A stretch of 45,058 bases of DNA from a bacterium (GTDB lineage Bacteria > Verrucomicrobiota > Kiritimatiellia > CAIKKV01 > CAITUY01), in contig JBAWZF010000023.1 of the NCBI GenBank assembly GCA_037143175.1, positions 1 to 45,058 on the forward strand, in the 5' to 3' direction. This document shows positions 10,640-42,173 of the stretch, piece after piece. The position numbers and the translations under genes were made by a program. Each line of letters begins with the position of its first letter. Position 1 is the stretch's first letter. The notes beneath the pieces were generated by a model. It was not told the origin of the DNA, did no database searches, and worked only from the letters and a program-made list of their open reading frames with translations.

Positions 10640-12400
10640 TTAAGCCCTCGTGATGTTTACCAGGATTCGCTCGGCACCGAGATTTTCAAGCCCTGCTGCG
10701 ATCAGGAGCTTGCTGAGTCGACGTTCAGCCAGGGGAATGACCCGCTTGACCCGGATGTTGTCCTTGCGGCAAAGGTTGAGAAAGTCCTGCCAGGTGGCCA
10801 GATGAATATTGGGCGTATCGTACCATTCGAACGGTAACGCATCGGTCTTGGGCATCCGTCCGGTGACGCCCAGTCTGAGCCGGTTATGCCAGTTGGCAAA
10901 GTTCGGGAAACTGACAATCCCTTCACGAGCAATACGCAGCATCTCATGGAGGACTTCACGGGGATGTCGCACCACCTGAAGAGTCTGGCTTAATACGACG
11001 AAGTCGTAGGTCTGGTCGGGAATCATGTCGAGTTTCTGGTCAATATCACTATGGAAAACGTCGAGATTCTTACCCATGGCGGCGATCAGATGGCTCAACT
11101 CGATATCCACACCCATGCCGGAAGTTTGCCGGTTCGCAGTCAGAAGGGAGAGCAAATCGCCATCGCCACAGCCGAGATCGAGTACCCGTGAACCGGGTTC
11201 GATCAGGGAGGCAATCAGGTCGTAATCGTCACGCTTGACCGCCTTGACGGGCGCGGCACATTGAGCACAGCCGCCCAGGAAGGTGCAGATGACCTGTGAG
11301 GTCTGGTCGATATCCACCAGAAAGGCATCATGGCCATAGGGCGCCTTGAGCAGGCAATACGAGATGGGTTTTCCGATTTGGACCAGGGCTGAGGCGATTT
11401 CCAATGACTGTTCGGGCGGGAATAGCCAGTCGGAACTCAACGCCACAATCAGGAAGCGGGCTTTCACATTCTGGAAGGCGGTTTTGAGGTCGCCATAAGA
11501 TTCAGCCAGATCATAGCTGTCCATGGCCTGGGTAATGTGCAGATAGGAGTTGGAGTCGAACCGTTCGACGAATTTTTCGCCTTGATATTGAAGATAACTT
11601 TCGACCTCGAAACGGGTTCTGAAACGTTCCCCTGCCGGGTTCTCTTTTTTCTTCCGCCCGAATTTGCGAGTCATGATTTCCGGGGAAAGATAGGTGATGT
11701 GGCCCAGCATACGGGCAGCGGCCAATCCATTGCTGGGTTGTGTGCCGGTGCCATAATAATCGCCCTGCGCCCAGCCGGGGTCACTGGTGATCACTTCGCG
11801 GCCAACGATATCAAAGGCCAGCGCCTGGGCCGAAAGTGAGGCCGCGCTGGCGAGACAGATGCAGCGCTCAGGCATATCGGGGTAACGGATGCTCCACTCC
11901 AGAACTTGCATGCCCCCAAAGGAGCCGCCGATAATGGCGTAGAGCCGGTCAATTCCGAGATGGTTTAGCAGCAGATAGTGCGCGTGGACGATGTCGCCGA
12001 TGGTGATGTTCGGGAAGGCGGCGCCATAGGGGGTGCCCGTGGCCGGATTGATCGAGGCGGGGCCGGTGGTCCCCTTGCAGCCGCCCAGAATATTGGCGCA
12101 GATGACGTGGAAGCGGTTGGTATCAATCCCTTTCCCCGGGCCGATCATGGCATCCCACCAACCTTGGGTTTTCGGGTCTGCAGAATGATACCCGGCGACA
12201 TGGGCATCTCCAGTGAGGGCGTGACAGATGAAAACCACGTTGTCTTTGGCGGGATTCAATGTGCCATAGGTCTCGTAAGCAACAGTCAATTCTGGCAAAG
12301 CATTCCCGCCTTCGAGTGTGAACCCACCCGGAGGAAGCGTAATGGTGGCCAGCTTCGTCTCCACCAGCCCGACTGATTGTTCGAGATTTATCTTATCCAT
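10640..12400 (-). CDS. metX-metW: Fused homoserine O-acetyltransferase / MetW
   Basis: Two methionine proteins are joined in one 586-residue chain. The MetX half (about residues 1-375) is an alpha/beta-hydrolase-fold acyltransferase. It has the nucleophile serine in GGSFGGMQVLEW (about 158), the aspartate in LSSDWLFPPEQS (about 325) and the histidine in YGHDAFLVD (about 354). The MetW half starts near 385 with DDYDLIASLIEPGSRVLDLG and has MetW-type methyltransferase-like motifs (CGDGDLL, VVLSQTLQVVRHP, FPNFANWHNRL). MetX makes O-acetylhomoserine, and MetW is known to support MetX in several bacteria. The first ATG in frame is 12400; a TTG at 12427 would add nine residues. A CxxC-like linker (GGCAQCAAPV) sits between the halves. 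cysE follows, separated by the hexamer hairpin. Confidence 0.93.
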   Translation of the reverse strand: MDKINLEQSVGLVETKLATITLPPGGFTLEGGNALPELTVAYETYGTLNPAKDNVVFICHALTGDAHVAGYHSADPKTQGWWDAMIGPGKGIDTNRFHVICANILGGCKGTTGPASINPATGTPYGAAFPNITIGDIVHAHYLLLNHLGIDRLYAIIGGSFGGMQVLEWSIRYPDMPERCICLASAASLSAQALAFDIVGREVITSDPGWAQGDYYGTGTQPSNGLAAARMLGHITYLSPEIMTRKFGRKKKENPAGERFRTRFEVESYLQYQGEKFVERFDSNSYLHITQAMDSYDLAESYGDLKTAFQNVKARFLIVALSSDWLFPPEQSLEIASALVQIGKPISYCLLKAPYGHDAFLVDIDQTSQVICTFLGGCAQCAAPVKAVKRDDYDLIASLIEPGSRVLDLGCGDGDLLSLLTANRQTSGMGVDIELSHLIAAMGKNLDVFHSDIDQKLDMIPDQTYDFVVLSQTLQVVRHPREVLHEMLRIAREGIVSFPNFANWHNRLRLGVTGRMPKTDALPFEWYDTPNIHLATWQDFLNLCRKDNIRVKRVIPLAERRLSKLLIAAGLENLGAERILVNITRA

Positions 12401-12503
12401 GACCTGATACTTAATAACTGCATTCAAATCCGTTCCGGAAACCTTCTTATCTAGCGGTCAGAGAGCTAAAAGTCAAACACTGGCATCTTGGCGGGACGCC
12501 AAA

Positions 12504-12616
12504 GCTGAAAAAGGTGGCGTTCGACGTCCTCGGCGAACGCATTGTCCATTTAAAGTCCCCATATCGCCCAGCCGCCGGGGACGTCGGCTGCCACCTGAGC
12601 TTCGCTCTTTTTACAG
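12504..12616. repeat. Imperfect long inverted repeat with nested hairpins
   Basis: Left arm about 12504-12540 and right arm about 12570-12616 are inverted copies of a unit containing GGTGGC, a GACGTCC core and a short self-complementary stem. In the left copy the inner stem is GTTCG/CGAAC; in the right copy it is AGCCG/CGGCT. Both flank the GACGTCC core, so the stem changes are compensatory. A third copy of the unit is at about 39135-39161. It lies between cutA and metX-metW and codes for nothing visible. Confidence 0.75.
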
Positions 12617-12955: not shown

Positions 12956-13101
12956 GGAAGTAAAGATACCTAATTGTGGTAGCCACGGCAAGGCGATAGC
13001 ACTTGGTTTTGGAGTGCGGCGGCTTGACCTGCGCTTTTCATCGGCGCGGCTTGACGCGCTTTCTGTTATAAATACCTCGTTGAATATTAATAACAGCAAT
13101 G

Positions 13102-13115
13102 CTAAAACGTTTTAG
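13102..13115. promoter_or_regulatory. LacI-type operator palindrome
   Basis: CTAAAACGTTTTAG is a perfect 14-bp palindrome with the central CG typical of operators bound by LacI/GalR-family proteins, whose hinge helices insert at that step. It ends one base before the likely start codon (13117) of a gene with a LacI-type DNA-binding domain, so autoregulation is likely. The divergent cutA start at 12955 is about 150 bases away. I saw no second copy in the window. Confidence 0.7.
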
Positions 13116-13116
13116 T

Positions 13117-14535
13117 ATGAATTATCGAGTGACGATAAAGGACGTTGCTGAAGCGGCGGAAGTCTCGGTTTCAACGGTCTCTCAGGTGCTCAATGGGCGG
13201 GCTGGTGAGTTACGGATAAGTAAGGAAACTCAGGCGCGAGTGCTGACGGTTATCCGCCAAACCGGTTTTGTACCTAACCGGATGGCCCGGGACATGGTGC
13301 TGGGAAGACGTTCATTTATCGGTCTCGTTCTATCCGTAACCGGGCTGGCCGAAGCGGCCATGCTGCTTCCCGAACTGGAACCATTGATCACTACGGCTGG
13401 CTACCGGCTTATTCTGGTGATGGTCCCTGCCGATCCCAATGCCGCTTCAGTTCAGGTTGCCGATCTGCTCCGTGACGGGGTCGCCGGTTTGGTGTGCAGT
13501 TCTGCCGCCATGCCGGTTGCGGTTAAGATGGCGGCTAGCAACTGTCCTGTCATTGGCCTGAGTCCGGCGGCGGGCAAAACCATACTGGCAACACTGCGTG
13601 GAGAGGTGGTAGTAGCGGGGAGCGTGGAGCAAGGAGCGCCGAGCAAGGCGGAGACTACGCCGCTGCCTGTTCCTGTGGTAACGCCACCGACTCCGGTGAC
13701 AGCGACGTCGGTCATTCCAACACCACCGCCATCACGCCCGATCGTGCCGGAACCTAAACCGTTGTCTGCCCCAGTCACGCCTATTTCTCCAGCAGGATCC
13801 GGCTCGGACGGTTTAACAGGCTTACCGCAGGCAGACAGTTCTTTGGAGAGCGAGGTTTATCCGAGCCGCGACCCAGAACCGGACTTTATGGAGCCGATCC
13901 TCGCCGTGGAACCCGGGCCGGTTCTCACGCCGTCTTCTGGTGTAGTAGCCGCTGTCCCCAGCGGCACCGGCCCCGAGCCGGCCCCTACTGTGACCCCAAC
14001 ACCGGAACCTACGCCGATAATCACTGAACCTGTTCAAGCTGATTTGGCCTACACGCCACCACCAATATCAGAGCCCCAGCCCGAACCGGTTGCCCCGGTC
14101 TTGGAACCCGAGCCAGAAATTGCTGCGCCAGTAACACCGGCACCTGAAAGCGAGCCAACGCCGGTGGTGATAACCCCGGTGGAGCCCGAACCACCGCCGC
14201 CGGAACCGGCCCCAGTCTTCATCGAGCCGACACCGATTGTGGAGCCTGGTCCGGTCATTGCTCCTGCCTCAGCCTCGACTCCCAGCAACCAGCAACCTAT
14301 CAACTCAACAACTCCTACTCCCCCTGAGCCGGAAACACAGGCACCGGCTCCTGAGCCGCCGCCAGTCGTGATAACTCCGTTGGAGAATATCCCCCCGCCA
14401 TCACCACCCGAACCAGAATCACCTGAAGTCAACACTCGGGCAGATCCCCAAACAGAAGGCATTGCCGCGGATGAGCCAGCTCCTGACGGCAAAGTCCCTG
14501 CTGATGGAGTGGGTGGTGATCAGGCACCAATGTAA
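13117..14535 (+). CDS. LacI-type DNA-binding protein fused to a Pro/Glu-rich tail
   Basis: Starting from MNYRVTIKDVAEAAEVSVST, the first 60 residues are a LacI/GalR helix-turn-helix with hinge. About 110 residues then match the start of a periplasmic-binding-type sensor domain (FIGLVLSVTGLAEAAMLLPELEPLI, LRDGVAGLVCSSAAMPVAV). The sensor stops after about residue 165, well short of the usual 330-residue protein. It gives way to roughly 300 residues dominated by Pro, Glu, Thr and Val in PEP-like runs, presumably disordered. The change coincides with a heptamer array at 13617-13653, and a second array lies at 14281-14318. An upstream in-frame ATG at 13099 is possible, but codons 2-6 would then be the operator palindrome. 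DNA binding looks intact; effector binding probably does not. A second cause of the tail cannot be told from sequence. Confidence 0.75.
   Translation: MNYRVTIKDVAEAAEVSVSTVSQVLNGRAGELRISKETQARVLTVIRQTGFVPNRMARDMVLGRRSFIGLVLSVTGLAEAAMLLPELEPLITTAGYRLILVMVPADPNAASVQVADLLRDGVAGLVCSSAAMPVAVKMAASNCPVIGLSPAAGKTILATLRGEVVVAGSVEQGAPSKAETTPLPVPVVTPPTPVTATSVIPTPPPSRPIVPEPKPLSAPVTPISPAGSGSDGLTGLPQADSSLESEVYPSRDPEPDFMEPILAVEPGPVLTPSSGVVAAVPSGTGPEPAPTVTPTPEPTPIITEPVQADLAYTPPPISEPQPEPVAPVLEPEPEIAAPVTPAPESEPTPVVITPVEPEPPPPEPAPVFIEPTPIVEPGPVIAPASASTPSNQQPINSTTPTPPEPETQAPAPEPPPVVITPLENIPPPSPPEPESPEVNTRADPQTEGIAADEPAPDGKVPADGVGGDQAPM
13617..13653. repeat. Heptamer array (GGAGC-type) inside the LacI hybrid gene
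   Basis: About four units of a 7-base NNGGAGC pattern lie in frame and encode GSVEQGAPSKAE. The array sits exactly where recognisable LacI sensor-domain sequence ends and the Pro-rich tail begins. Confidence 0.65.
14281..14318. repeat. Heptamer array (AGCAACC-type) inside the LacI hybrid gene
   Basis: Units such as AGCAACC repeated with 7-base spacing and drifting to TATCAAC encode SNQQPINSTT. This segment is unlike the surrounding Pro/Glu-rich codons, which marks it as inserted material kept in frame. Confidence 0.6.
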
Positions 14536-14753
14536 CGGCCGCGTTCATTAAAAGAAGGGTCGTTTTTTGGTGAACGCATAACTATCTTTCTGCCGCTAAA
14601 TGAGATTCTTTCTGGGAGTTGATAAACCATGACCAGAATGCTTTTCCATGAGAAAATCGAGCCACTGTTGTCGAAGACCTCGACATTCAGTTCCCGCCCG
14701 GAATCGATGAGGAAGCGAAACTGAAAGCTAATCCTTAATCTCTGGTGAAGGTT

Positions 14754-14975: not shown

Positions 14976-15024
14976 GTGGATCTTGGATCGAAACAAAAGG
15001 CATTGAATAATGTTGCAGACATTG

Positions 15025-15036
15025 AACCTATAGGTT
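15025..15036 (+). promoter_or_regulatory. Palindrome over the toxin ribosome site
   Basis: AACCTATAGGTT is a perfect 12-bp palindrome ending 4 bases before the toxin ATG, and its AGG is the only likely ribosome-binding site. The site could be an antitoxin operator or could limit toxin translation. From memory, the operator of the M. tuberculosis HigA1 TAC also uses CCTATA/TATAGG half-sites. Confidence 0.4.
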
Positions 15037-15040
15037 AAAT

Positions 15041-15466
15041 ATGAAATTGGAGTTTCTGCTGGAAGGTTCAGCATTTACTTTGTACGCCATCGTGCAGGGA
15101 GAAAATGTGGCCGAATATCTGGAGGAATTGGAACAGCGCAATGTTCAGGCACATGACCAGATTGCGCGGAGGTTACTGCAACTGGCGGAGCGTGGATCAT
15201 CCAGAAAAAAGGATGAATTCAATGACTTGGGGCATGAGCTCTATGAGGCGAAGGCTAAGAAGGGGCCACGCGTGATTTTCTTCTACGATGACAACCGGGT
15301 TGTCATATGCGCACATGCTTTTGATAAACAGGGGCAGAAGACGCCTAAAAGGGAAATCGAAACCGCCATGAGTCGTAAACGTAGCTATTTTTCCTGTAAG
15401 GAAGCAGGTTTAGGGTTTGAAATACATCGGGATGAGAAACAAGCAGAGCCCAGGAGGCAGCCTTGA
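15041..15466 (+). CDS. HigB/RelE-type toxin (Gp49-like), TAC module
   Basis: The product is a 141-residue protein of the phage Gp49-like/HigB branch of the RelE superfamily, mRNA interferases that cut mRNA on the ribosome. The diagnostic stretch is LGHELYEAKAKKGPRVIFFY followed by NRVVICAHAFDKQGQKTPKREI, with the basic residues and the C-terminal KTPKxEI block usual for the family. About 25 extra residues trail the core. The antitoxin start TTG overlaps the toxin stop (TTGA), and the order is toxin, antitoxin, SecB-like protein, as in TAC systems. Confidence 0.82.
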   Translation: MKLEFLLEGSAFTLYAIVQGENVAEYLEELEQRNVQAHDQIARRLLQLAERGSSRKKDEFNDLGHELYEAKAKKGPRVIFFYDDNRVVICAHAFDKQGQKTPKREIETAMSRKRSYFSCKEAGLGFEIHRDEKQAEPRRQP

Positions 15467-15918
15467 ATACCATGATCGTACGAAAAAGCGGTGGATACAC
15501 TTTTGCGGAAGGATTGAAACGGGCACAGAAACACCTCGAGTTTTATGAGGAGGGCCTTGTCATTGAAGTGGCCGCACGCATTATTGATGCCATGGAAGCC
15601 TCCGGCATAACTCGCAGTGAACTGTCGCGTCGGTTAAAGGTAAGTCCTGCCTATGTGACCAAAATCTTGCGCGGTCACGCTAATCTTAGTCTGGAGAGTT
15701 TGGCGAAGCTCGCCTTCGTTCTCGACTTGAAATGGGAATGCATTCTGATTCCCAAACATGCCAGAGTGAGCCTTCTCGCGGTGACAGGCGAATCCGGCGG
15801 GTCAGCCATTCGGACGGTAGAAACGGCGACCATTGAGGGCCTGGGCGGAGATCCCACTCCGGACGAAAATGCCCAATATGCGAAAGGTACACGCTATGAA
15901 CTGCCTCTTTCGGCTTGA
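15463..15918 (+). CDS. HigA-type XRE antitoxin, TAC module
   Basis: The product is a 151-residue antitoxin. The XRE helix-turn-helix is ASGITRSELSRRLKVSPAYV followed by TKILRGHANLSLESLAKLAF (about residues 45-85). TTG at 15463 is chosen because AGGAGG lies 5 bases upstream; the ATG at 15472 would be 14 bases away. About 50 residues follow the DNA-binding domain. In TAC antitoxins such an extension is the chaperone-addiction segment that makes the antitoxin depend on a SecB-like protein, and here it ends where the SecB-like gene begins. That functional match is inference. The HTH is certain, and the assignment as antitoxin rests on gene order. Confidence 0.82.
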   Translation: MNTMIVRKSGGYTFAEGLKRAQKHLEFYEEGLVIEVAARIIDAMEASGITRSELSRRLKVSPAYVTKILRGHANLSLESLAKLAFVLDLKWECILIPKHARVSLLAVTGESGGSAIRTVETATIEGLGGDPTPDENAQYAKGTRYELPLSA

Positions 15919-16339
15919 CCATTACCAGATTGAAAGTGTTGCCGTCGCTCAGAACGAGGCGTTTGATTCCTCGTTGGTGGTTCATACGGGCGACATTTCC
16001 TCTGCGATTAACATAGCGCCACACCTGAAAGAGCCGGGTAAATATCGACTAACCCTCGAAGTTCAGGTCAAACCCAAGTCGAAAAAGGAAAAGGAATTCT
16101 TTCCCTATGGAGTCTCGATCAGGGGGCGTGCCTTTTTTTCCTTCAAGGAGCCATGTTTAGCTGACCAAGCGGAACATACGCTTCGCGTTAATGGCGCCGC
16201 CATCCTGTATGGACTGCTCCGTGCCCAGGTGGCGCAAATTACGGCACAATCCGTTCATGGTCAATTTCTACTGCCAACGATGGATTTCGTCGAACTGGCC
16301 AAATCAAAGCAGGAGGGCAAGGCCGCGAAGGGAAAATAG
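15896..16339 (+). CDS. SecB-like chaperone of a TAC module
   Basis: The product has 147 residues starting MNCLFRLDHYQIESV. ATG at 15896 has AAAGG 8 bases upstream and overlaps the antitoxin end by 23 bases, so translation is coupled. The N-terminal part alternates strand residues (LDHYQIESVAVAQNEAFDSS, YRLTLEVQVKP). The C-terminal part has a long helix and LLPTMDFVEL, the place where SecB and SecB-like proteins have a LPPxxF-type ending. There is no signal peptide. In known TACs the chaperone folds the antitoxin and shields it from proteolysis. Similarity is weak and I identify it by pattern plus position; the usual alternative is 'conserved hypothetical protein'. Confidence 0.68.
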   Translation: MNCLFRLDHYQIESVAVAQNEAFDSSLVVHTGDISSAINIAPHLKEPGKYRLTLEVQVKPKSKKEKEFFPYGVSIRGRAFFSFKEPCLADQAEHTLRVNGAAILYGLLRAQVAQITAQSVHGQFLLPTMDFVELAKSKQEGKAAKGK

Positions 16340-16484: not shown

Positions 16485-16742
16485 TCAGTTCATCGGCAAG
16501 CAAGGTAGCGGGCAGTCCGTGACGGTAGTCATTTGTGAACTGAGGTGAAATTTCGGCTTTAGTTTCTCAAGGCTGTTTAGCAGGCCGGGTCGTTTCATTT
16601 CAACATTTCGCCGGGCTTCTTCCCAGACATGCTCATTGATTACAACCGTTGCGTGTTGGAAGAGGGCATCCAGTAAAATTCTGGTGGCATTGTTGGGATC
16701 GGCAGCCGAGAACAGAACGTTGGCATCGGCAAAGACCTTCAT
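16485..16742 (-). pseudogene. PIN-domain toxin, truncated
   Basis: The first 65 residues (MKVFADANVLFSAADPNNAT, then INEHVWEEARRNVE) match the start of a PIN-domain ribonuclease toxin, with the first acidic residue in FADANVLF and a glutamate in the following helix. The protein then ends after only 85 residues, with TVTDCPLPCLPMN unlike any PIN sequence. The later acidic residues and strand (normally to about 135-140 residues) are missing. In the next frame the same bases read NDYRHGLPATLLADELSRKG, so the end looks like a fusion to another remnant. The ATG overlaps the AbrB antitoxin stop by 4 bases. Probably inactive. Confidence 0.7.
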
Positions 16743-16972
16743 TTTTTTCGCCGTTTCAAATGTTTTGCAAGTTCGGCATCGGCAGCATCAAACTCGTCCA
16801 CCCGGGCATTGGTGTATAATTCAATGGGGAATGCTACGCCAGGGCGCAACAATATTCCTTGTTCCGATGTCTCTGCAATAATCCTTCCACCATGATCTAA
16901 ACCGAGCAGGTGCCTCATGGCCTTTGGAAGCGTTAAAGTGCCGCGGGAATTAAGTTCTAGGATCATATTCAT
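16739..16972 (-). CDS. AbrB/SpoVT-type antitoxin
   Basis: The product has 77 residues. LELNSRGTLTLPKAMRHLLG is the swapped-hairpin AbrB/MazE DNA-binding motif (normal form: vtxkGrvtlPkexRxxLgl). The C-terminal half is charged and would bind the PIN toxin. Its stop overlaps the PIN start (ATGA), the common order antitoxin then toxin. Since the toxin is truncated, this may be an orphan antitoxin. Confidence 0.82.
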   Translation of the reverse strand: MNMILELNSRGTLTLPKAMRHLLGLDHGGRIIAETSEQGILLRPGVAFPIELYTNARVDEFDAADAELAKHLKRRKK

Positions 16973-38138: not shown

Positions 38139-39077
38139 ATGATCAACAGTCCTAATCTTGAGAAAATGAAACTGTCGCTTCGCAACCGCACCGTTGTTGG
38201 AGCCTCCAATACGTCTGAAGAGGCTGCCAATGGTGATCCCAAAGAAACGGGTGTGTCGCGTCAGGATTATTTTCCTTCGCGCATGCTGGGGGAAAAAGTA
38301 AGGCGTAAAAACAACTTTGGTACGGTGGTCGGGCAACTGTTCCTGATATTGTTGCTAATATTGATTCCTTTGGGCGTTTTTTGCTATTTCGATTTATCTG
38401 AATATCGACAATGGGTTACGGCGACTGAACTGCTGCCGGACTTGCGAAAGGCTGCTGGCGACGATGTGAGGGCTGCCGCATTGGCGCAGTTGGCGATAAC
38501 AGTAGATCCTGGAAATGTGTCCTTGAAAAGTGGGCTTTTGGGGGTTTTGGCAATCCGGAAGGTGGGTCTGGGGCAAAGAGAAGTAGGGTTGCGTAATTGC
38601 AAGCAGGTTTGTCAGCAATTCCCAACGTCATGGTTTGCAAGCCAGTTTTCTGAGGCTTCATTTTACGGTTCGTGTCCTGCCTGTGCGGCAAAGGGGTCTG
38701 TCCCAGTACCGTGTTACCGCTGTAAAGGCACCGGGGTATGCTCTCGTTGTGGGGGTTCTGGGGAATGTTCAACTTTTATGGGGAATTCAAGGCCGAGTGG
38801 TTCTGGTGGCGACATTCGGAATACTGGTAAATTTCAAGGAATGGGTGAGAAATGTCTCGACTGTAAAGGTACGATGAGGTGTCGGTATTGTGGCGGAAAA
38901 AAAACACTTTCCGGGACTTGTGCCAAGTGTGAGGGGGAGGGATGCCAGTTCTCTAAGCAAAAGGTCATCGAACAATATCGGGCCGTGATCGATTATGTGC
39001 TGGGGTTGCACCCTTCCTGGGTGGCAACGGTGGTTCGACTCCAGGCGACTGTGAAGTCATGGATTCCGTTTTTTTGA
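38139..39077 (+). CDS. Membrane-anchored DnaJ-type zinc-finger protein, copy 1
   Basis: The product has 312 residues. A polar N-terminal segment of about 65 residues is followed by one membrane helix (LFLILLLILIPLGVFCYF, about 68-85). A helical region of about 90 residues follows, then a Cys-rich zone at about 178-275 with repeated CxxC and CxGxG motifs as in the DnaJ zinc finger (CPACAAKG, CYRCKGTGVCSRCGGSGECS, CLDCKGTMRCRYCGG, CAKCEGEG). There is no J domain. The zinc region probably binds unfolded protein or partners; on which side of the membrane it lies I cannot tell. Bases 38514-39071 recur at 41610-42167 and partly at 44711-44852. The start is uncertain; ATG at 38166 is an alternative. 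Confidence 0.75.
   Translation: MINSPNLEKMKLSLRNRTVVGASNTSEEAANGDPKETGVSRQDYFPSRMLGEKVRRKNNFGTVVGQLFLILLLILIPLGVFCYFDLSEYRQWVTATELLPDLRKAAGDDVRAAALAQLAITVDPGNVSLKSGLLGVLAIRKVGLGQREVGLRNCKQVCQQFPTSWFASQFSEASFYGSCPACAAKGSVPVPCYRCKGTGVCSRCGGSGECSTFMGNSRPSGSGGDIRNTGKFQGMGEKCLDCKGTMRCRYCGGKKTLSGTCAKCEGEGCQFSKQKVIEQYRAVIDYVLGLHPSWVATVVRLQATVKSWIPFF
38514..39071 (+). repeat. Direct repeat copy 1 (558 bp) of the zinc-finger gene
   Basis: This segment matches 41610-42167 with no net insertion or deletion (constant offset of 3096 bases) and scattered substitutions. A shortened third copy is at 44711-44852. All copies are in the same orientation. Confidence 0.92.
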
Positions 39078-39400
39078 GCAAAGGCCAATCAAGAGATTTG
39101 AAAAGTATTTGCACAAAAGTCGCAAAGCACGCGAAGGTGGCAGCCGACGTCCCGGCGGCTGCATTTAGCAGCAGGAAAGATAATCCTGATCTGAATCAAA
39201 ACTGTATGCATTTTCCTAAACTCATCCCCTGCATTCAAAATCTAATCATATAAATATAACTAGATACGTTATAGTTATATTAGTATGATCGAGAGCAGTG
39301 GGTGATGGATCTCACCTGGAAAAAGTGAGGGTGGTGGAGGGGGGGGCGAGGCGCATTATTATGCGTTATCTACATCAAGAGAATTGACGGGATATAGCAT
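39078..39400. other. Intergenic region with repeat unit and AT-rich palindrome
   Basis: No gene is seen. It holds a third copy of the GACGTCC-core hairpin unit (39135-39161, stem CAGCCG/CGGCTG). At 39254-39280 there is a 9-bp inverted repeat (ATATAACTA/TAGTTATAT), which may be an operator. A TTGACG (39384-39389) with a GATACT 17 bases later (39407-39412) would start transcription just before 39422. Confidence 0.5.
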
Positions 39401-41299: not shown

Positions 41300-41596
41300 T
41301 CATTCCGTCAGTGTAATGGGGCTAAAGACGTGGTGACGTTTCTGGCGTTCTTTTTTTGATAAACCTTCTCCCTCAATTGCGAGTCGCTTTTCGATTCGTG
41401 CATTGTACATACCCAGTTGCAGTTCGTACGCGCCTGGAGGTATTTGGTCGGGTGGTTGAAACCGGAACGGGATATTCAGCGAGCCAAGGGCGAAAGTTTG
41501 CCAGAGGGGGAAGTTGAAGGTATGCACCGTGTGTCCCTGGGCATCTAACAGGTGGATAAAGAATACGATATCGTCCAGATTTCCGGGTCTGCTCAT
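41300..41596 (-). pseudogene. C-terminal fragment of a larger protein, cut by the zinc-finger repeat
   Basis: On the minus strand about 98 residues starting MSRPGNLDDIVFFIHLLDAQ and including IPPGAYELQLGMYNARIEKR look like a genuine beta-sandwich tail, similar in style to the C-terminal domain of membrane glycosyltransferase-type proteins. I am unsure of the family. The frame continues upstream only into the antisense of the zinc-finger repeat, whose homology starts at 41610. The true N-terminal part of the gene has therefore been lost by recombination at about 41597-41610. Confidence 0.55.
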
Positions 41597-42173
41597 GATA
41601 ATGGCTAGCAATGTTTCCTTGAAAAGCGGGCTTTTGGGGGTTTTGGCAATCCGTAAGGTGGGGCTGGGGCAACGAGAAGTAGGGTATCGTAATTGCAAGC
41701 AGGTTTGTCAGCAATTTCCTGCGTCATGGTTTGCAAGCCAGTTTTCTGAGGCTTCATTTTACGGTTCGTGTCCTGCCTGTGCGGCAAAGGGGTCTGTCCC
41801 AGTACCGTGTTACCGCTGTAAAGGCACCGGGGTATGCTCTCGTTGTGGGGGTTCTGGGGAATGTTCAACTTTTATGGGGAATTCAAGGCCGAGTGGTTCT
41901 GGTGGCGATATCCGGAATACGGGGGAATTTACAGGGATGGGAGAGAAGTGTCTTGATTGCAAAGGCACGCTGAAGTGTCGAAATTGCGACGGAAAGAAAA
42001 CATTTAAGGGGACTTGTTCAAGTTGCAACGGGGAAGGCCACCAGTTCTCCCAGCAAAAAGTCACTGAACAATATCGTGCCGTGATTGATTATGTGTTGGG
42101 ACTGCACCCTTCCTGGGTGGCCACGGTGGTTCGACTCCAGGCGACTGTGAAGTCATGGATCCCGTTTTTATAG
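41595..42173 (+). pseudogene. Truncated zinc-finger gene, copy 2
   Basis: Up to 192 residues from MIMASNVSLKSGLLGVLAIR repeat the second half of the protein at 38139-39077, with all the CxxC motifs kept. The membrane helix and about 125 N-terminal residues are missing. Cysteine positions are conserved while other residues differ (for example CRNCDGKKTFKGTCSSCNGE), so it diverged under some constraint or came from a paralogue. There is no good ribosome site; if expressed it would be a soluble protein. Confidence 0.7.
41610..42167 (+). repeat. Direct repeat copy 2 (558 bp) of the zinc-finger gene
   Basis: Homologous to 38514-39071. Homology on the left begins abruptly beside the protein fragment on the minus strand. 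On the right it continues past the stop (to about 42191) only with copy 3, not with copy 1. Confidence 0.9.

Follow-up and report, generated by a model that had tools for sequence, protein, structure and literature searches.

A stretch of 45,058 nucleotides from a Kiritimatiellia genome (the window) carries three overlapping genes that very probably make up a chaperone-addicted HigBA-type toxin-antitoxin-chaperone (TAC) module. The module belongs to a known kind of TAC and is not a new system, as TACs with HigBA, MqsRA, and HicAB pairs have been known in many bacteria since 2011-2016 (PMC5105189, PMC4257090). By analogy with characterized TACs, its main use is perhaps phage defense, a reading that we favor with modest confidence. 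The features of the module and its immediate surroundings are as follows.

14652-14738, + strand: hsdS 3'-end remnant, ENRATVVEDLDIQFPPGIDEEAKLKANP followed by a stop, with 88% DNA identity over 73 bp to L024 17034-17261
15023-15038, no strand assigned: candidate operator TGAACCTATAGGTTAA, 16 bp, directly upstream of the toxin start
15041-15466, + strand: Gp49/HigB-type toxin, 141 aa, ATG start, first gene
15463-15918, + strand: helix-turn-helix (HTH) antitoxin, 151 aa, TTG start, second gene
15586-15729, + strand: helix-turn-helix region of the antitoxin, residues 42-89, Pfam HTH_3 at 1.3e-9
15745-15915, + strand: C-terminal tail of the antitoxin (residues 95-151), which ends in YAKGTRYELPLSA and is proposed to act as the chaperone-addiction (ChAD) region
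15896-15918, + strand: overlap of the antitoxin end and chaperone start, 23 nt
15896-16339, + strand: SecB-like chaperone, 147 aa, ATG start, third gene

Gene layout and selection

The first protein had been taken for a HigB-like toxin, and it matched Pfam Gp49 (PF05973) at 1.7e-15 and the PDB HigB structure 6af3 at 1.7e-4. By analogy with its family, it is probably an mRNA-cleaving nuclease of the RelE/HigB type. The original prediction of a HigA-like antitoxin with an extension of about 50 residues was likewise borne out, as the HTH_3 match at residues 42-89 is followed by a tail of about 57 residues. The genes overlap on the + strand as had been claimed; the toxin stop and the TTG start of the antitoxin have 4 nt in common, and the last 23 nt of the antitoxin gene are also the first 23 nt of the chaperone gene. 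Judged by these two overlaps on one strand, the three genes are predicted to form one operon. An orthologous module (L042) encodes an antitoxin that is 65% identical and starts at an equal 4-nt overlap. Because L042 has both overlaps (4 nt and 23 nt) and a similar chaperone N-terminus (MSCLFQLDHY compared to MNCLFRLDHY in the window), the start calls in the window are supported.

The order of toxin, antitoxin, and chaperone was repeated in 11 further HigB-type modules of the phylum with a readable toxin gene. Omega was calculated against the congener G004 with the overlap regions included, and was 0.23 for the toxin, 0.08 for the antitoxin, and 0.10 for the chaperone; each gene is kept by purifying selection. 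The kept gene order and the low omega in every gene confirmed that the gene set is above chance.

The third protein

The third protein just missed the cut-off for Pfam SecB (1.2e-5, 25.6 bits; cut-off 26) and matched PADLOC PD-T4-9_C at 1.8e-11. A phmmer search with this protein against the PDB gave no match. The AlphaFold2 model, built from a two-row alignment with a mean pLDDT of 70.7, consisted of four strands and then two helices, with residues 119-147 modeled poorly. The top Foldseek match by E-value was 5mtw, the Rv1957 SecB-like chaperone (E 8.9e-6), and E. coli SecB was second. In VIA-align, 1qyn (E. coli SecB) scored Z 12.4 and 5mtw scored Z 12.0, compared to 5.7 for unrelated rows. 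The fold search and the structural alignment agreed, and the protein encoded at 15896-16339, for which a SecB-like fold had been proposed, is modeled with the fold of SecB and not a different one.

The identity of a housekeeping SecB was rejected, as scores were far below the equivalog cut-offs (15.8 bits vs 102.8 for TIGR00809 and 22 vs 143 for NF004392). No second SecB match was found in the genome of the window (G000). This agrees with the published pattern in which more than 90% of genomes with a TA-associated SecB, outside the alpha-, beta-, and gamma-proteobacteria, are without a solitary SecB (PMC4257090).

Candidate operator

The candidate operator holds a 12-bp perfect palindrome core, AACCTATAGGTT, that occurs once in the window. 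Three relatives in three families (L011, L042, and L012) have an identical TGAACCTATAGGTTAA upstream of the toxin, despite other upstream DNA being unrelated between families, and near-variants are present upstream in L013, L014, L017, and L023. A different palindrome, GGTATCAATTGATACC, is common to the MqsA-type modules, and a third subgroup of HigBA modules has TTTCACATATATATGAAA. The core fits the form of the E. coli MqsA motif, AACCT(N)AGGTT, found in csgD as AACCT-TA-AGGTT (PMC4894380), and its half-sites are common with the operator motif of M. tuberculosis HigA1, ATATAGG(N6)CCTATAT (PMC8669151).

Antitoxin tail and candidate degradation signal

The antitoxins of the window and L042 have the tail pattern RTVETAT..GLGG.P.P....YAK....YELP.xA in common. 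Both aromatic and basic residues occur in the tail of the window antitoxin (YAKGTRY), from which the M. tuberculosis ChAD motif, W-x-R-x3-Y, is absent. The structural model of the antitoxin was rejected as a basis for argument, being too poor (mean pLDDT 49.5, two-row alignment); a pLDDT below 50 in the tail gives at best a faint suggestion of disorder.

ClpX recognizes the Val-Ala end of M. tuberculosis HigA1 (PMC8165232) and the LAA end of CmdA (PMC11618068). The antitoxin of the window ends in Ser-Ala (LSA) and not in two aliphatic residues, and so resembles LAA or VA without being either. By its residues, this end is a weaker match to those that ClpX recognizes. Genes for both ClpX and ClpP are encoded in the same genome. 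Among the 34 TACs of the phylum, alanine was the last residue in 29 of 34 antitoxins, in 1 of 34 chaperones, and in none of 29 toxins (Fisher test of antitoxins vs toxins about 7e-13 and vs chaperones about 1e-12, with kinship shrinking the effective n). An Ala-terminated antitoxin is an already known trait of TACs.

Shared coding of the antitoxin end and chaperone start

In the window, the last antitoxin codon is GCT (15913-15915, Ala), and its last two bases plus the base that opens the stop codon are read in the other frame as CTT, which is Leu7 of the chaperone. Long overlaps of antitoxin and chaperone genes were present in 25 modules of the phylum and ranged from 11 to 56 nt, the commonest being 26 nt. 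The last antitoxin codon was GCT in 23 of these 25, and a CTT leucine near the chaperone N-terminus, made from the antitoxin end and the stop base, was present in 24. Where the overlap was at most 4 nt (9 modules), no antitoxin gene had GCT as its last codon. The pattern spans HigA and MqsA types. Both reading frames seem to be under selection at the antitoxin end, because Ala alone allows four codons and Leu alone allows four first bases. As a universal rule this was rejected, since two gammaproteobacterial/betaproteobacterial MqsA-type plasmid TACs have no overlap; their antitoxins end in EAA and ALS.

We tentatively propose that in the hexamer GCT-TRA/TAG the Ala-stop of the antitoxin also serves as a Leu of the chaperone, so that the degron and the N-terminal strand of the chaperone would lie in the same bases. 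If true, loss of the degron would be tied genetically to damage of the chaperone, and chaperone addiction could be locked in across unrelated antitoxins (HigA and MqsA, with Pro in one HicB case). No mention of shared Ala/Leu coding was found in the available passages of open-access papers, and the observation may be new. It suggests a simple explanation, open to testing, for the evolutionary persistence of chaperone addiction.

Distribution and probable horizontal transfer

A profile built from TAC chaperones was used to survey genomes and had matches in 22 of the 346 Kiritimatiellia genomes and 25 of 387 genomes sampled from the phylum. One locus was found by a contig scan with a two-row alignment in G082, a Pontiellaceae MAG (JAFGVP010000022.1). 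The 34 modules, including that of the window, were 14 HigA-type, 17 MqsA-type, 1 HicAB-like, 1 CmdTA-like, and 1 DUF4258-like, with some labels resting on sequence appearance and Pfam support for a sample.

The closest relatives of the window module were in G004 (same genus) and in G218 and G082 (other families), in a clade with full support. Within the family and order of the window, most members were without the module. Synonymous divergence between the window and G004 was 0.22 for the toxin, 0.27 for the antitoxin, and 0.19 for the chaperone, compared to 0.91 for purL, the single chromosomal yardstick. Because the spread is patchy and synonymous divergence is far below that of purL, the module probably spread by horizontal transfer. 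The idea of a phage- or plasmid-borne copy was rejected; tblastn of the chaperone against a phage collection gave no match, a two-row chaperone query of viral contigs gave no match, and the only plasmid homologues were distant. A weak SecB-like match to the L050 query (29.7% over 73%) was seen in a streptococcal satellite phage, MK448383.1.

On the tree of chaperones, the TA types were strongly clustered (5 changes of type vs 13.4 in shuffles), and the idea that ChAD tail and chaperone form a cassette freely swapped between TA families was rejected as a general rule. At L016 (G066:C49), a SecB-like gene comes after a HicAB-like pair and overlaps it by 26 nt, and the chaperone groups with those of MqsA-type modules; by its position on the tree, this single nested HicAB case is a possible swap. 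One family of putative toxins, about 115-140 aa long, opens TACs that have MqsA-like antitoxins and SecB-like chaperones (L004, L018, L019, L021, L022, L040, L043, L044, L047, L049, L050, L052, and L053), and the three that were scanned (L018, L049, and L052) had no Pfam match at 0.01. L058 (G465:C4) is CmdTAC-like, with a 195-aa protein that by eye resembles an ADP-ribosyltransferase, a 119-aa protein ending in ALAA, and a SecB-like protein.

Genomic setting

The copy of the window's TAC in G004 adjoins a longer HsdS-like tail, the L024 stretch that matches the hsdS remnant of the window. TACs also adjoin hsdM, hsdS, or hsdR genes in G003, G026, G073, and G023. Four of 15 TACs had an HsdS/HsdM match no more than 3 kb away, for which a crude upper-bound estimate of chance is about 5e-5; such TACs neighbor type I restriction genes above chance. 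A distant plasmid TAC adjoins drmA of DISARM, and on Acinetobacter plasmids L069 and L070 a SecB-like gene adjoins a gene annotated as "abortive infection family protein."

Several other features of the window were recorded. A LacI-type HTH (Pfam 1.9e-15) is fused to a long Pro/Thr/Glu-rich stretch at 13099-14535, upstream of the module; in G003, too, a LacI-type gene lies ahead of the restriction genes and the TAC. Downstream, a MazE/AbrB-like antitoxin gene (16739-16972, - strand), just below the Pfam cut-off, overlaps a PIN gene (16485-16742, - strand) of 85 aa with an early stop. Another frame carries on as ATLLADELSRKGWIA, which suggests a frameshift or partial deletion in the PIN toxin. 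In a single ORF at 10640-12427 (- strand), MetW (Pfam 3.8e-63) is joined with an alpha/beta hydrolase that resembles homoserine O-acetyltransferase in sequence, and by these domains the ORF is a methionine-synthesis fusion. Near-duplicate Cys-rich (CxxCxGxG-like) proteins lie about 3 kb apart at 38139-39077 and 41514-42173, with no Pfam match at 1e-4. A repeat of 27-28 bp is common to the window (12569-12596 and 39135-39161) and the G004 contig (L024 17474-17500 and 17873-17899).

Proposed mechanism and alternatives

In the proposed mechanism, one coupled message would yield all three proteins. The antitoxin would bind the toxin, and its helix-turn-helix would bind the palindrome at 15023-15038 and repress its own operon. 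The tail would not be self-sufficient; a SecB-like tetramer would hold it and prevent both aggregation and attack by ClpXP, which would recognize the hydrophobic, Ala-ended C-terminus. When the chaperone becomes occupied, most likely by bulk phage structural protein, the antitoxin would be freed and degraded, the toxin would be released, and growth of the infected cell would stop. The need for the chaperone, degradation by ClpXP, cleavage of mRNA, and triggering by phage are inferred from characterized TACs. In E. coli C496, HigBAC is triggered by the major tail protein of lambda (Mets et al. 2024, cited in PMC11980606), and CmdTAC is triggered by the capsid protein of T4 (PMC11618068).

It is possible, if rather doubtful, that the TAC is instead a switch for stress response or maintenance, set off by the load on protein folding or export and not by phage. 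This was the original model for the M. tuberculosis TAC (PMC4257090, PMC8165232), and the chaperone fold permits many clients. However, the association with type I restriction in the class points to defense, as do DISARM beside a related plasmid TAC and abortive-infection genes beside the two Acinetobacter plasmid homologues. Horizontal mobility suits defense as well, though it would also suit maintenance.

We consider it improbable that the toxin and antitoxin are an ordinary two-gene HigBA pair and that the SecB-like protein is a general or export chaperone merely co-transcribed with them. An export role would be vacant in G000, which has no other SecB match, and Rv1957 can act partly in export, as discussed in PMC4257090. 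However, with the gene in so few genomes of the class (22 of 346), the lineage exports proteins without a SecB-like chaperone. The SecB-like genes that were found almost all adjoin TA pairs, and similarity to the SecB equivalogs is far under the cut-offs. A decayed, non-functional relic of a lost restriction-modification locus is most improbable of all. The hsdS scrap and broken PIN gene nearby speak for it, but three open frames, omega of 0.08-0.23 vs the congener, and an intact candidate operator speak against it.

For the favored reading, a chaperone-addicted module, the chaperone is likely dedicated to the toxin switch because most Kiritimatiellia genomes have no recognizable SecB. The module is therefore a clean setting for asking what the chaperone senses. 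The survey also shows that Kiritimatiellia have putative chaperone-addicted TA modules, and that several of these adjoin restriction systems.

Comparison with known systems

The fold of the window chaperone is like that of the housekeeping SecB of E. coli (1qyn; Z 12.4 over 120 residues), but the two are only 13% identical and the window chaperone is TA-associated. E. coli CmdTAC/PD-T4-9 (PMC11618068) resembles the window module in the PD-T4-9_C match, the Ala-ended antitoxin, and the proposed ClpP-dependent release. Membership in CmdTAC was rejected, however, because the CmdT toxin is an mRNA ADP-ribosyltransferase, whereas that of the window is Gp49/HigB. The Geobacter lovleyi TAC (Glov_3492-3490, PMC5105189) is also HigBA-type, and according to the published primers its antitoxin and chaperone genes overlap in an equal relative frame; in contrast, its antitoxin ends in Gly and the overlap is shorter, at 14 nt. 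HigBAC of E. coli C496, compared by description, has a HigB-type toxin, a HigA antitoxin, a SecB-like chaperone, and a proposed anti-phage role as in the window; it differs in having a known trigger.

The module had been predicted to match the design of the M. tuberculosis TAC, Rv1955-Rv1956-Rv1957 (HigB1-HigA1-SecB-TA), and the likeness extends to gene order, the HigB and HigA families, the SecB fold (5mtw), the antitoxin tail, and a small hydrophobic C-terminal residue. Both candidate and M. tuberculosis operators are palindromic with CCTATA/TATAGG halves, although that of the window is without the 6-nt spacer. The two systems differ in that their chaperones are 10-13% identical in structural alignments, the chaperone overlaps are not alike, and the W-x-R-x3-Y of the M. 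tuberculosis tail is missing from the window. The original expectation that the module would extend the family therefore holds in part; it adds a member in a little-studied lineage, but the extension is modest, as HigBA, MqsRA, and HicAB TACs have long been known.
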